A stretch of DNA of 36,202 nucleotides from Acidobacteriota bacterium (lineage in GTDB: Bacteria > Acidobacteriota > Thermoanaerobaculia > UBA5066): NCBI GenBank assembly GCA_003152095.1, contig PLZI01000043.1, positions 1 to 36,202 of the forward strand, read 5' to 3'. How positions within the stretch are numbered: position 1 is the stretch's first letter; each line of letters opens with the position of its first letter. A program made the translations under genes and the position numbers. The notes below the pieces were generated by a model. That model saw nothing but the letters and a program-made list of their open reading frames with translations, was not told the origin of the DNA and made no database searches. This document shows, in pieces, positions 30,806 through 36,202 of the stretch.

Positions 30806-32279
30806 TCATGGAGTCACCTTCGAGAGCGCGTCGACGACGCGCTCGAGCTTCATCCCGCGGCTTCCCTTGACCAGCAGGGTGTCTCCCTGACGGAGCTGCG
30901 GTTCGAGCCATTTCACAAGGTCCTCCACTCGTTCGAAGTGCGCCGACCGGGACGGATCGAATTCTTCGAAGGCGAGTCGCGAACGCGGGCCGAAAAACGC
31001 GGCGACGTCCGCGCTCTCGCGCGCCCTTCGGCCGAGGCCGCGGTGCGCCTCTTCCTCGAAAGCCCCGAGCTCCAGCATGTCGCCCAACACGGCGACGGCG
31101 CGGCCCGGGCGGCCCTTCTTCAGCTCCGCGAGCGTCGCGAGCGCGGCCTCCATCGATGCGGGCGAAGCGTTGTAGCAGTCGTCGAGAATCGTGATCCCGC
31201 CTACCCCCGCCACCACCCGCGAGCGATGCATGTACGGTCGAGCGGACGAGAGACCACGAGAGATTTCTTCGAATGAGAAAGAGAGAGCGAGAGCCGTAGC
31301 CGCCGCCGCGGCGGCATTCATCGCGTTGTGCTCCCCTACGAACCCCAGCCTGACGGTGACTCTGCGGAGCTGTAGGTTCGACCCCGACCGCGAACGGCCT
31401 GCTCCGCCGCCACCCTCCCCCTCTTCCCCTTCTAGGCAGATCTCCTGCCCTTCCACCCCGAGAGAGGTCGACCCGACGAGCCTGACGTCCGCCAGCGCAC
31501 TTCTTCCAAAAGAAATCTTGCTCACGCCGCTCGCGGCGCGCTCCGCCTGCGCCACGCAGCGCGCGTCGTCCGCGTTGACGACGGCGACGGAGCCCGGGAG
31601 GAGGCCGCGGTAGACCTCGCCCTCGGCTTCGGCGACGCCGCCCAAGTCCTTCAGGAACTCGAGGTGCTCCGCCGCGACGAGCGTGACAACCGCGACATCG
31701 GGACGCGTCATCGCCGTGAGGCGCGCCAGCTCGCCCGGCGCGGACATGCCGAGCTCGAGAACGGCGGAACGGTGTTCCTCCGAGAACCGGAAGAGCGTGA
31801 GCGGGACGCCCACTTCGTTGTTGAAGTTGCCTTCTGTCGCGAGCGCGGGCCCGCGCGTCCTCAAGATTGCCGCGACCATCTCCTTCGTCGTCGTCTTACC
31901 GTTCGACCCGGCGACCGCGCTGACCGGGATCGAGAACCGCCGCCGGTGGAAGCCCGCGAGCGCCCCGAGGGCGCGGAGCGTGTCGTCCACCTCGAAGAGC
32001 GGCACACCGGCGACGGCCGGCGTGCCTCGTCGCACGATGGCGCCCGCCGCGCCCTTCGCCACGGCCTCGGCGAGAAACCCGTGCCCGTCGAACCGGTCTC
32101 CCTGGAGCGCCACGTAGAGCGCGCCCGGCGCGAGCGTCCGCGTGTCCGTCGAGACGGACTCGAACGTTTCGTCGGCCGCGAGGCGGGAGGCGCCCGTCGC
32201 GCGCGCGACCTCCTCCGCTGTGAAGAGCCCGTCAGGAGAGGCCGTGGTGCGTCTCCTCGGGGAGGGTGAGTCGGCTCAT
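30806..32279 (-). CDS. murF: UDP-MurNAc-tripeptide-D-Ala-D-Ala ligase MurF, with apparent +1 frameshift near its start
   Basis: Adds the D-Ala-D-Ala dipeptide in peptidoglycan precursor synthesis. Family motifs are SVSTDTRTLAPGALYVAL in the N-terminal domain, P-loop AGSNGKTTTKEM, GNFNNEVGVPLTL, GEHNAMNAAAAA, DDCYNASPASMEAAL and VLGDMLELG, then a C-terminal VKGSRGMKLE. A Glu/Gly-rich insertion sits in the middle. The conserved N-terminus begins around GLFTAEEVARATG, but the frame there has no ATG, GTG or TTG. The first canonical start is GTG 32113, which would cut the N-terminal domain. An ATG at 32279 overlapping the previous gene's stop (ATGA) opens a 15-codon frame ending TCC TGA C at 32237-32231. 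A +1 shift there joins it to murF. Sequence error, inactivation or programmed shift are possible. Confidence 0.9.
32232..32279 (-). other. 15-codon frame ending in a TCC TGA C candidate +1 frameshift site
   Basis: Frame MSRLTLPEETHHGLS ends at TGA 32234-32232. The upstream gene's TGA overlaps its ATG, and the murF frame is +1 to it. The slip at TCC before TGA C resembles the RF2 and antizyme frameshift sites (CUU UGA C, UCC UGA). A GAGGAG lies 15 bases upstream of the slip codon, farther than the prfB spacing of three. Not demonstrated. Confidence 0.45.
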
Positions 32280-33238
32280 TTCGCGATGCCCAGAAGTCGC
32301 GGCCACGTGCCGGTGCTCTCGAACGAACGCGGGTGCTTCACGCGGTCGACGAGGTACTCGGCCATCGCGCGGACGATCCAGTTGAAGTTCTCCTGCCCCA
32401 CGGAGGCGAGGTCGGCGTCGGGCGCACAGTTCATGAAATCGATCGCGTAGGGAACGCCGTCCCGCACCGCGAACTCCACGGTGTTCAGGTCGTACCCCAG
32501 CGCCTCGCACAGCGCGAGCGCGCCCTTCGTCACACGCTCGACCATCGCCGCGGGCACGGCTCTGCCGCGCGCCGCTTCGTAGCGGAGATGGTGCGGCTCC
32601 TTCGGGGCGTACGGCATGATGCGTACGCGCTTGCGGCCGACGACGTAGCAGCGGTAATAGTCCGTGAAGTCGATGGCCTCTTGCGCCATCATTTCGAGGT
32701 CGCGCGTCTTGTCGTAAGCCGCGAAGAACTCCTCGGGCGTGTCGCATTTGGTGACGTCCTTCCACCCGCCGCCGTTCGCCGGCTTCAGGAAGATCGGGAA
32801 ACCGAGATACCCGAAGACGCGGTCCCAGTCGACCATGTCCATGTTGCGGAAGGATTTCTCGGTCGTGTTCGGCGGGCGCTCCTTGTGCGGAACGAGGACC
32901 GTTTTCGGCACGGCGACATTCGCCCCGATGGCGACGAGGTTGTCGAAGAACTTGTCATCGGCCGACCACCAGATCGGGTTGTTGACGACGTCCACACCGC
33001 GCGCGACGGCGCACTTCAGAAACGTGCGGTAAAAGGGAACCTCGTGGCTGATGCGGTCGAGAATGACGGAATCCTCGAAGGATTGCTCCTGCGTCAGGAA
33101 TGAGATCTTCACCAAACCGCATTCGATCGCGTCGCCGTTCTTTTTCGCGAGCTCGTTGATCTCGTTCATCAAAGCCCAGGGGAACGTGTCCTCCATGCCA
33201 AAGAGGAGGCCGATCCGTTTGTTCACCACCTGCGTCAT
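32276..33238 (-). CDS. ATP-grasp domain ligase (RimK-like)
   Basis: 320-residue cytoplasmic protein with an ATP-grasp fold, the fold of carboxylate-amine ligases such as RimK and D-Ala-D-Ala ligase. FLKPANGGGWKDV (150-162, Lys152) is the nucleotide loop, MMAQEAIDFTDYYRCYVVGRK supplies adenine and lid residues, and VEFAVRDGVPYAIDFMNCAPD near 260-275 holds the metal-binding Glu/Asp/Asn set. The N-terminal part, RIGLLFGMEDTFPWAL, is a Rossmann-like pre-domain. The ATG at 33238 has GAGGG at good spacing. Its TGA overlaps an ATG leading into murF, so a murein-related ligation is possible. Substrate unknown. Confidence 0.82.
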   Translation of the reverse strand: MTQVVNKRIGLLFGMEDTFPWALMNEINELAKKNGDAIECGLVKISFLTQEQSFEDSVILDRISHEVPFYRTFLKCAVARGVDVVNNPIWWSADDKFFDNLVAIGANVAVPKTVLVPHKERPPNTTEKSFRNMDMVDWDRVFGYLGFPIFLKPANGGGWKDVTKCDTPEEFFAAYDKTRDLEMMAQEAIDFTDYYRCYVVGRKRVRIMPYAPKEPHHLRYEAARGRAVPAAMVERVTKGALALCEALGYDLNTVEFAVRDGVPYAIDFMNCAPDADLASVGQENFNWIVRAMAEYLVDRVKHPRSFESTGTWPRLLGIAK

Positions 33239-33399: not shown

Positions 33400-34104
33400 A
33401 TGAGGCGTGAATACGGATCCTGGAAAAGCGCCGCGCTTTCGCGCCCGATGGAGTTTCTCTGGTTCGGCGACCGCGGTCGCCCGGTCCTCATGTTCCCGAC
33501 CTCGATTGGGCGCTTCTACCAGAACGAGGATTTCGGCCTCACGGGGGCGCTCGCGGATAAGGTCGACGCGGGCTTGCTCCAGCTGATCTGCGTCGACTCC
33601 GTGGACGCCGAGAGCTGGTACAACAAAAGGATCTCGCCTGCCGACCGCGCCCGCCGCCACGACGACTACGATCGCTACCTGCGCGACGAGATGCTCCCGT
33701 TCATCGAGAGCCGCACGGGCGGCAACGTCGTGACGCTCGGCGCGAGCTTCGGCGCGTACCACGCCGCGAACCTCGCGGGCCGCTACCCCGGCCGCGTCAC
33801 GAAGGCGATCTGCTTCTCGGGCCTCTACGACGTCGGCCAGTTCCTCGGCGGCTACTGGGACACGCTCTGCTACTACCACACGCCGATGGCCTACATCGCG
33901 AACATGAGCGGCGAGTGGCTCGACCGGCTCCGGCAGGTCGAATGGGTCGTCGCGACGGGCGAAAACGACTCCCTCATCGCGCAGAACCGCGCGTTCGCCG
34001 ACCTGCTCGCCAGGAAGGGCCAGCGCGTCCAAGCCGAGTTCTGGCCCGGCGTGTTCGGGCACGACTGGCCCTACTGGACGGAGAACGTTCGCCGCTTCAT
34101 TTGA
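33400..34104 (+). CDS. alpha/beta-hydrolase esterase family protein
   Basis: 234-residue alpha/beta hydrolase resembling the putative esterase family (EstA/YjfP-like). The nucleophile elbow GASFGAYHA gives Ser116. Asp190 in ATGENDSL and His221 in FGHDWPYW complete the expected triad. RPVLMFPTSIGRFYQNEDFGL near residue 28 provides the oxyanion region. There is no signal peptide, so it is cytoplasmic. It has its own divergent promoter region with the ATP-grasp gene. Its 3' end overlaps the second kinase by eight bases. Substrate unknown. Confidence 0.85.
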   Translation: MRREYGSWKSAALSRPMEFLWFGDRGRPVLMFPTSIGRFYQNEDFGLTGALADKVDAGLLQLICVDSVDAESWYNKRISPADRARRHDDYDRYLRDEMLPFIESRTGGNVVTLGASFGAYHAANLAGRYPGRVTKAICFSGLYDVGQFLGGYWDTLCYYHTPMAYIANMSGEWLDRLRQVEWVVATGENDSLIAQNRAFADLLARKGQRVQAEFWPGVFGHDWPYWTENVRRFI

Positions 34105-36202
34105 CGGGCGGCGCGGTTCTCATGTCCCTCAGGCGGCGGTTCGCGTGGGCCGCCTTCCGGAGCGCGTCGACCGCTTCCTCCTTCGGTCCGAGAATGCCGC
34201 GGATCGCCGCGAGGGCGGCCCAGCCCTCCGGGCGGATAGGCGCGAGGCGCGCCGCTTCCTGCGCCGCGGCAAGAGCCTCCTCGAAGGCGCCGCGCCGTTC
34301 GAGATGCTGCGCGTGCGCCGTCGCGAGCTCCCATGACTCCGGAAACGCTTTTCGTCCTTCCGCGAGCAGCGCGACGCCTTCATCGGCCCGTCCCATCCAC
34401 TCGCGGTACCGCGCGAGAATCACGAAGTCCACCGGCTCGCGAAGGACAGGGTCGCCGACCGCCCTCTCAAAGAAGCTCATGGTGGCGTCGTCGGCCACGC
34501 GCCGCCCGTCCTTTTCCACACCGAAGACGAAACCTTCGGCGAACGCGAGAGCGCGCGCGCGCTCGAATGTGATGGCGTCGGGATAGAGGGCGAGCGAACG
34601 GTTGCACTGCGCGAGGCAGGACGCGTATTCACGCAGGCGGAGAAGGCACCGCGCGAGAAGCTCAGCGGCTTCCCGGGCGCGGCGGGGATTGCGCGCGTCG
34701 GTGGTGCCCTCGAGGATCACGCGCGCATCCTGCCAGCGCTCGAGCGCCGTGAACGCGCGGGCGAGCGGAAGCCTCCACGCCGGATCATGAGGCGCCCGTT
34801 CACGCGCCTCGGAAAGGAGCGCGACTGCTTCGCGCAAAGACCGGAACGACTCGGGCAGGCGCGCCTCCGAAAGGCTGGCCGCGTGCTCGACGAGCTGCTC
34901 GCCGGCCGCCACGAGAGACGTGCCGTCGCGCGAGAGACCCAGCCTCTGCCGCGACGTGGCAACGGCGTCCGAGATGCGGCCCTGCGCCTGCTGCGCTTCG
35001 ATGAGGAGCTCGAGGAGCGTGTTGTTCCCCTCGTGAACGGTGAGCCCGGCCCGGGCCGCTCGCTCGGCGAGCGGCGCGTGACCGAGAGCGAGATGCGCCC
35101 GTGCCATGGAAATGAACAGCTCCGCCGGCTTTTCCATCGCGCCGGACAGGGTGTCGAGCACGGTCACGGCCTCCGCCGCGCGGTCGAGCTTGAGGAGACC
35201 CCGCGCGAACGTGAGGACCACGGCCTGTTGCAAGGGGTCGTCCGGAAGCTCGCGAACGACCGAAGGCAGGACGACGCGCGAGAGAAGGTCGACGGCGGCC
35301 TTCCAGTCGCCCGCGCCCGCGAGCTTCTTCGCCTCGTCGAGGTCGCGCGCGGCGCCGCGCACGTCCTCCGCCGCCTGATAGCGCATCTTCGGCGTGAACG
35401 GCGTGACCGTGAACCCTCGGCGGGCCGCGGCTCTCGTAAGGTCGGCGACGAAAACCTTCCAGTCCGGATGGCGGGCGTGACGCTCGCGCTGAAGGCAGCT
35501 CCTGATGACGTCTTCGGCCCCGAAGGACGTCCTGCGAAAGAGCTTGCCCGTCACTTCGGGGGGTTCGCCGCCGATCTTCGCCCTGCGGATCTCGTGCCAC
35601 GTACCCGAGAACGGCTTGCGCCCGGTCTCCCACTCGTACATGAGGCACCCGAGGCTGTAGATGTCAGATCTGAGATCGAGCGCGCCGCCGAGGAACTGTT
35701 CCGGCGACAAGTACGCAGCGGTGCCGAAAATGAGGCGCCCGCCGCCGGGCGTCGTTTCCATCTCGCTCTTGCCGCGCGGCAATGAGATGCCCCAGTCGCT
35801 GACCGAGGCGTGCCCCGCTCCGTCGAGGAGAATGTTTTCGGGCTTGAGGTCGCGGTGCACGATCCGGTGCTCGACGTACGCCCATTCGAGGGCGCCCGCG
35901 ATGCGCACGAGCGTCCGGTAGAAAAACTCGGGGTCGCGCGAGGACATCTGCGACCTCAGGCTTCCGCCCGCCATCCACCGCGAGCAGACGACCGGCAGCT
36001 TCTCGAGGGGGAAGACGCAGAGCGCCTCGACGATGCCGTCGCAGACGGAGAGCGTCAGCCAGACCTGGAGCTCGGCGAGAAAGCGCTCGAGGTCTTCCTC
36101 GCTGTCGGCGCCGCGCGGAAGCGCTTTCAGCGCGAAGCTGGGGCCGGAGGGCGTCTGCCTGACCCGCGCGCACACGCCCATCACTCCCTGGATGACGTCC
36201 AC
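34097..36202 (-). CDS. Ser/Thr protein kinase with C-terminal repeat domain, start outside window
   Basis: Hanks-type kinase whose first codons lie beyond the right edge; the first 701 visible residues are given. The Gly loop is partly visible (GVMGVCARV), with Lys26 in FALKAL. HRDLKPENILL has catalytic Asp118. Where DFG is expected the sequence reads SDWGIS (Asp136-Trp-Gly), and FGTAAYLSPEQF follows. After about residue 290 come a long Ala/Leu-rich region with repeated 34-residue-like helical pairs (for example LPRA-like segments near 300-330, 360-420, 470-700) consistent with TPR or Sel1-like repeats, and an ending rich in Arg. No membrane segment is seen in the visible part. The gene is a different kinase type from that at 16323. 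Confidence 0.92.
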   Translation of the reverse strand: MDVIQGVMGVCARVRQTPSGPSFALKALPRGADSEEDLERFLAELQVWLTLSVCDGIVEALCVFPLEKLPVVCSRWMAGGSLRSQMSSRDPEFFYRTLVRIAGALEWAYVEHRIVHRDLKPENILLDGAGHASVSDWGISLPRGKSEMETTPGGGRLIFGTAAYLSPEQFLGGALDLRSDIYSLGCLMYEWETGRKPFSGTWHEIRRAKIGGEPPEVTGKLFRRTSFGAEDVIRSCLQRERHARHPDWKVFVADLTRAAARRGFTVTPFTPKMRYQAAEDVRGAARDLDEAKKLAGAGDWKAAVDLLSRVVLPSVVRELPDDPLQQAVVLTFARGLLKLDRAAEAVTVLDTLSGAMEKPAELFISMARAHLALGHAPLAERAARAGLTVHEGNNTLLELLIEAQQAQGRISDAVATSRQRLGLSRDGTSLVAAGEQLVEHAASLSEARLPESFRSLREAVALLSEARERAPHDPAWRLPLARAFTALERWQDARVILEGTTDARNPRRAREAAELLARCLLRLREYASCLAQCNRSLALYPDAITFERARALAFAEGFVFGVEKDGRRVADDATMSFFERAVGDPVLREPVDFVILARYREWMGRADEGVALLAEGRKAFPESWELATAHAQHLERRGAFEEALAAAQEAARLAPIRPEGWAALAAIRGILGPKEEAVDALRKAAHANRRLRDMRTAPPVK

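Follow-up and report, generated by a model that had tools for sequence, protein, structure and literature searches.

A murF gene without a canonical start codon in a genus of Acidobacteriota, best read as ACG initiation in a gene overlap

The murF locus and its missing canonical start

The window, meaning the whole stretch of 36,202 nt that was analysed, is contig C116 of a 182-contig MAG with a completeness of 99 %, and its nearest named records are Acidobacteriota MAGs. The genome of the window (G000) was compared with three other species of its genus of uncultured Acidobacteriota (G001, G002 and G003), each a separate MAG, and the genus-level statements made here rest on these four species, all represented by MAGs. 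Pairwise MurF identity among the four species was 73–80 %. Elsewhere in G000, the prfA gene (L154/L152, G000:C92:21249–22209) was found to fall into two frames, with ambiguous sequence between them that gives X in its translation. This split is probably an assembly gap; prfA of G003 is a single open frame.

On the minus strand of the window, a gene for a Ser/Thr protein kinase with TPR repeats (34097–36202) lies upstream of an ATP-grasp gene (33262–32276), which is followed by murF. A homologous kinase–TPR gene occupies the corresponding position in G002. The ATP-grasp product is RimK-like and possibly of the R2K clade, based on weak matches to TIGR00768 and PF18299, and the gene shows 85–88 % identity to the versions in the congeners. 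In G000 the ATP-grasp gene and murF share one reading frame, with the ATP-grasp stop TGA at 32278–32276. An ATG (32279–32277) overlaps this stop as ATGA and opens a frame of 15 codons, MSRLTLPEETHHGLS, which ends in TCC TGA C at a TGA in 32234–32232 and relative to which murF lies in +1. These features had been described in an earlier, sequence-only reading of the window; their coordinates were confirmed, and its description of the 15-codon frame as coupled in appearance to the ATP-grasp gene was judged right.

The murF product scored 399.7 bits against TIGR01143, compared with a curated cut-off of 288.6, and contains the middle and C-terminal Mur ligase domains, with PF08245, PF02875 and PF01225 all matched. 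The coding sequence proposed here extends from 32245 to 30806 on the minus strand, encoding 479 aa from an ACG start deduced from the four-species comparison to a TGA stop at 30808–30806. No ATG, GTG or TTG was found in the murF frame between the ATP-grasp TGA and a GTG at 32113–32111. This first canonical start is too late to be the real one, as its use would cost 44 codons of the first MurF domain. Residue 4 of solved MurF chains aligned with residue 19 of the query, counted from the first residue after the ATP-grasp stop, and the codons between the conserved LFTAEE and the GTG were under purifying selection (dN/dS of about 0.11–0.37 in six pairs). Together these two results place the MurF N-terminus 5′ of GTG 32113, in agreement with the sequence-only reading.

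The absence of a canonical start, as first noticed in the window, was confirmed in all four species; in each, the murF frame was free of such codons when followed upstream as far as an in-frame stop. Downstream, the first canonical start is reached 74 codons past the anchor codon GTC in G001 and G002, and 32 codons past it in G000. By comparison, about 100 other MurF loci had a canonical start near the expected place wherever their upstream sequence was complete. Two seemingly start-less MurFs (L019 and L060) were artefacts of the alignment and do have good ATGs, and one that runs off its contig end (L035) was left out of the loci with complete upstream sequence. A search of Rfam at the murF locus gave no match. 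The missing canonical start is a real, genus-wide property of this murF and is more than chance or error.

Three further explanations, namely an assembly error, a gene that is no longer intact and the use of GTG 32113 as the start, find some support in that the sequence comes from a MAG and that this GTG is the first canonical start in the frame. However, the three other assemblies show an identical arrangement, which excludes an error confined to one assembly, such as the single surplus C that had been proposed. The gene is the only murF copy in each of the four genomes, with no second murF found by a search of G001–G003, and this, together with its purifying selection upstream of the GTG, refutes the crippled gene suggested earlier. 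G001 and G002 also have no canonical start near the position of GTG 32113. We consider this group of explanations very improbable.

A probable GCS2 remnant and the possible origin of murF

In G003 the gene directly before murF is not the ATP-grasp gene but GCS2, a carboxylate-amine ligase of 370 aa (PRK13515, 511 bits), so that the order is ATP-grasp, GCS2 and murF (ATP-grasp then GCS2 at L118 10980–13102). The C-terminus of this GCS2 is VVDYILEETRYGLD, directly followed by the stop, and its tail, EETRYGLD, corresponds to EETHHGLS at the end of the 15-codon frame in the window. The two tails agree in 24 of 30 nt, and no ungapped alignment elsewhere on this strand of the G003 contig was better. 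GCS2 was searched for elsewhere in G000, G001 and G002 and found to be absent. Given the tail match and the loss of GCS2 from these three genomes, the 15-codon frame (32279–32232) is most simply explained as what remained of GCS2 after a deletion that left intact its eight codons carrying the putative murF start site. In the murF tree G000 grouped with G003 with modest support, a pairing with which either one or two GCS2 deletions would be compatible.

GCS2 also follows an ATP-grasp gene in another family of the order (L137–L139), where it has the C-terminal motif ET..G[LI] in the versions EETRYGL, AETSHGI and DETAHGL and the protein continues for 11–20 residues further. The pair of ATP-grasp and GCS2 genes is a candidate peptide-ligase operon, which would have been partly lost in three congeners.

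The position of GCS2 also bears on readthrough of the ATP-grasp TGA, which had been raised as a possible source of MurF and would yield an ATP-grasp–MurF fusion. The two genes are in one frame with a single TGA between them in G000, G001 and G002, as this explanation would require. In G003, however, the 370-aa GCS2 intervenes and murF still has no canonical start, which rules out readthrough as a mechanism shared by the genus. The leader in the murF frame moreover diverges like neutral sequence, and readthrough is accordingly regarded as hardly credible.

The nearest relatives of this murF outside the genus, within the genome collection, were MurFs of Myxococcota with 54–56 % identity and a normal ATG, and identity to the MurFs of its own family was about 40 %. 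The division cluster of G000 (L121, G000:C155:98000–116000) has the order ftsI–murE–mraY–murD–(ftsW region)–murG–murC...ftsZ; murE lies directly before mraY, and no second murF was found in this cluster. The Myxococcota-like identity and the absence of murF from the division cluster suggest that the original murF was replaced by a foreign gene landing at the GCS2 3′ end. A search of plasmids returned distant MurFs only. In this replacement the incoming murF would have lost its own ATG, and codons of GCS2 would have become its start site. The GCS2 C-terminal motif offers a source for both elements of such a site, with its Glu-Glu codons (GAG GAG) forming a Shine–Dalgarno (SD)-like stretch and its Tyr-Gly codons (T-ACG-GC) containing an ACG.

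A conserved ACG and the probable route to MurF translation

In the murF leaders of the genus, which aligned without gaps in all four species, an ACG in the murF frame was found to be conserved together with an SD-like sequence before it, a feature absent from the sequence-only reading. The ACG (32245–32243) is the sole near-cognate codon to occupy one column across all four and is placed 4–6 residues before the usual MurF N-terminus. It overlaps the last 14 nt of the upstream frame, the TGA of which (32234–32232) begins 11 nt after the A of the ACG and is in the identical place in all four species. A purine-rich stretch lies 6–7 nt 5′ of the ACG in each species (GAGGAG, GAGGAG, GGAGAGGG and GAAGGG), that of G000 being GAGGAG at 32258–32253, 7 nt before the ACG. 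Both elements are thus held in the last eight codons of the 15-codon frame.

The predicted energies of the anti-SD duplex were −8.4 kcal/mol for G000 and G003, −7.9 kcal/mol for G002 and −4.1 kcal/mol for G001, values reached by 4.9, 5.7 and 37 % of random windows for −8.4, −7.9 and −4.1, respectively. The stretch in G001 is therefore weak evidence for an SD and counts against the use of the ACG. A 16S rRNA was sought in the assembly for its anti-SD and was absent; canonical SD use was deduced from infC. The leader flanking the ACG had an identity of 0.50–0.61 between distant pairs, compared with 0.55–0.63 for four-fold sites, while the ACG itself was invariant. Since 32 % of four-fold columns were identical in all four species, the chance of three invariant bases is about 3 %. 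The GCS2 family conserves Tyr/His-Gly where the ACG falls, and the invariance of the ACG is therefore partly inherited, a reason not to place too much weight on it.

These observations make it reasonably likely that murF starts at the non-canonical, near-cognate ACG and that this codon is reached by termination–reinitiation. Ribosomes would finish the upstream frame, consisting of the whole GCS2 in G003 and of the 15-codon remnant in G000–G002, terminate at the TGA located 11 nt past the ACG, and then reinitiate at this codon, aided by the SD-like stretch and presumably with initiator Met. Coupling of murF to the upstream frame is probable, judging from the geometry of the overlap. Non-canonical initiation does occur in the genus, as infC starts with ATC in G000 (L126, G000:C150:34511–34954) and with CTG in G001–G003 (L123, L124 and L125), behind AAGGAGG in each case. 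The recovery of infC also indicates that the approach used here to find starts detects a known non-canonical case. The infC start codon itself changes within the genus.

Several points count against the ACG. In one reporter in E. coli, an ACG start gave 0.1–1.5 % of the ATG level (PMC6925171), a strength that is low for an essential enzyme, and coupling, low demand or permissive initiation would be needed to make up for it. The overlaps usual in coupled genes are of the −4, −1 and −8 types (PMC10666635), and the 14-nt overlap of murF is longer.

Alternatively, reinitiation near the TGA could take place at some other non-canonical codon in the interval from the ACG to LFTAEE, with the start not fixed. 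The candidates in G000 are GCC, TCT, CCT, GAC, GGG and CTC, which sit closer than the ACG to the TGA and to the usual MurF N-terminus, and termination–reinitiation favours starts near the stop (PMC10666635). None of the codons in this interval is near-cognate, however; only the acidic GAC/GAG and a TTC are conserved among them, and in its distance from the SD the ACG is the best fit. We regard such a floating start as unlikely. A later start was also considered at EEV, beside a strong SD-like GGAGGAGG, using either GTC or the ACG within GCG ACG GGC. It was rejected as it would drop the conserved LFTAEE, and this second ACG is missing from G001.

The sequence-only reading had favoured slippage into +1 at TCC TGA C. 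Translation from ATG 32279, or through GCS2 in G003, would then slip at the TGA to give MurF with a 15-residue leader or, in G003, a GCS2–MurF fusion. In support of this, all four species keep the TGA and the +1 offset of murF, TCC TGA C is similar to the site in antizyme, and the genus uses +1 frameshifting in prfB. The prfB genes served as a control, in which the RF2 +1 site CTT TGA C was invariant in all four genomes with nearly invariant surroundings (L146–L149, around base 1505). At murF, in contrast, the codon before the TGA varies among the four species (TCC in G000; GAC, GGT and GGC in the others), and re-pairing in +1 is poor for the last three. Stimulators of the RF2/antizyme type consist of an SD 3–4 nt before the slip codon or of RNA structure. 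At murF about 18 nt separate the SD-like stretch from the TGA, and the stretch does not adjoin the slip codon; RNA folding at the site was unremarkable (z = 0.15). Slippage would also force a fusion in G003, even though a GCS2 that stops at the TGA is already complete by the standard of its family.

The conserved TGA is explained as well by coupling, and +1 slippage is weakened to the point where we hold it improbable. Of the two outcomes named beforehand as contrary to a slip, the lack of a conserved slip site among homologues was found, and a canonical start elsewhere was not, as none occurs within the genus.

A fuller version of ACG initiation can be put forward tentatively. The start would have been taken from the coding sequence of the upstream gene after the present murF joined it, and kept throughout the genus after this donor was cut to eight codons. 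The ACG, reached by reinitiation, would be held low by IF3 and might act as a throttle on cell-wall precursors. We consider this combination possible but clearly less probable than ACG initiation as such.

Implications and comparison with known systems

Genes that begin with a codon other than ATG, GTG or TTG are truncated or missed by annotation pipelines, which allow no other starts. The natural non-canonical starts of bacteria are few and mostly in regulatory genes such as infC and sigR. A search of the open-access literature gave no bacterial gene with a natural ACG start, and murF would, if it does start there, be to our knowledge the first essential gene in bacteria documented with one. 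The murF case is notable for its codon, for the essential cell-wall enzyme concerned and because the origin of its start site can be traced, and is better read as ACG initiation in a gene overlap than as frameshifting. If true, it would mean that even a start codon among the weakest can sustain an essential enzyme, and it would show how a start site can arise from the coding sequence of another gene.

Among known systems, prfB resembles murF in that a short upstream frame closes with TGA and the main gene follows in +1, but differs in that its slip codon is invariant and that at murF varies. Pairs translated by termination–reinitiation (PMC10666635) share with murF a downstream start just before the upstream stop and a stop that is kept in place. 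Most coupled pairs, however, have ATGA, TAATG or −8 overlaps, whereas murF would combine a 14-nt overlap with a non-canonical start.

The closest likenesses are to genes with rare starts. Non-canonical starts of infC are known from elsewhere (PMC5472188), and infC (AUU, AUC or CUG) is, like murF as read here, an essential gene with a conserved near-cognate start behind an SD. It differs in autoregulating via IF3, a loop that murF does not have, and murF is further set apart by its putative ACG start and its overlap with an upstream frame. In Streptomyces, sigR has a GTC start that is conserved in 32 of 34 species, experimentally shown and repressed by IF3 (PMC5472188). As with the murF ACG, present in four of four species, this is a rare start conserved across a genus, accompanied by an SD and misread by annotation rules. 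The sigR start is GTC rather than ACG, belongs to a regulatory gene rather than a metabolic enzyme, and has an SD, AGGAGGTG, that is stronger than the SD-like stretch before the start deduced for murF.
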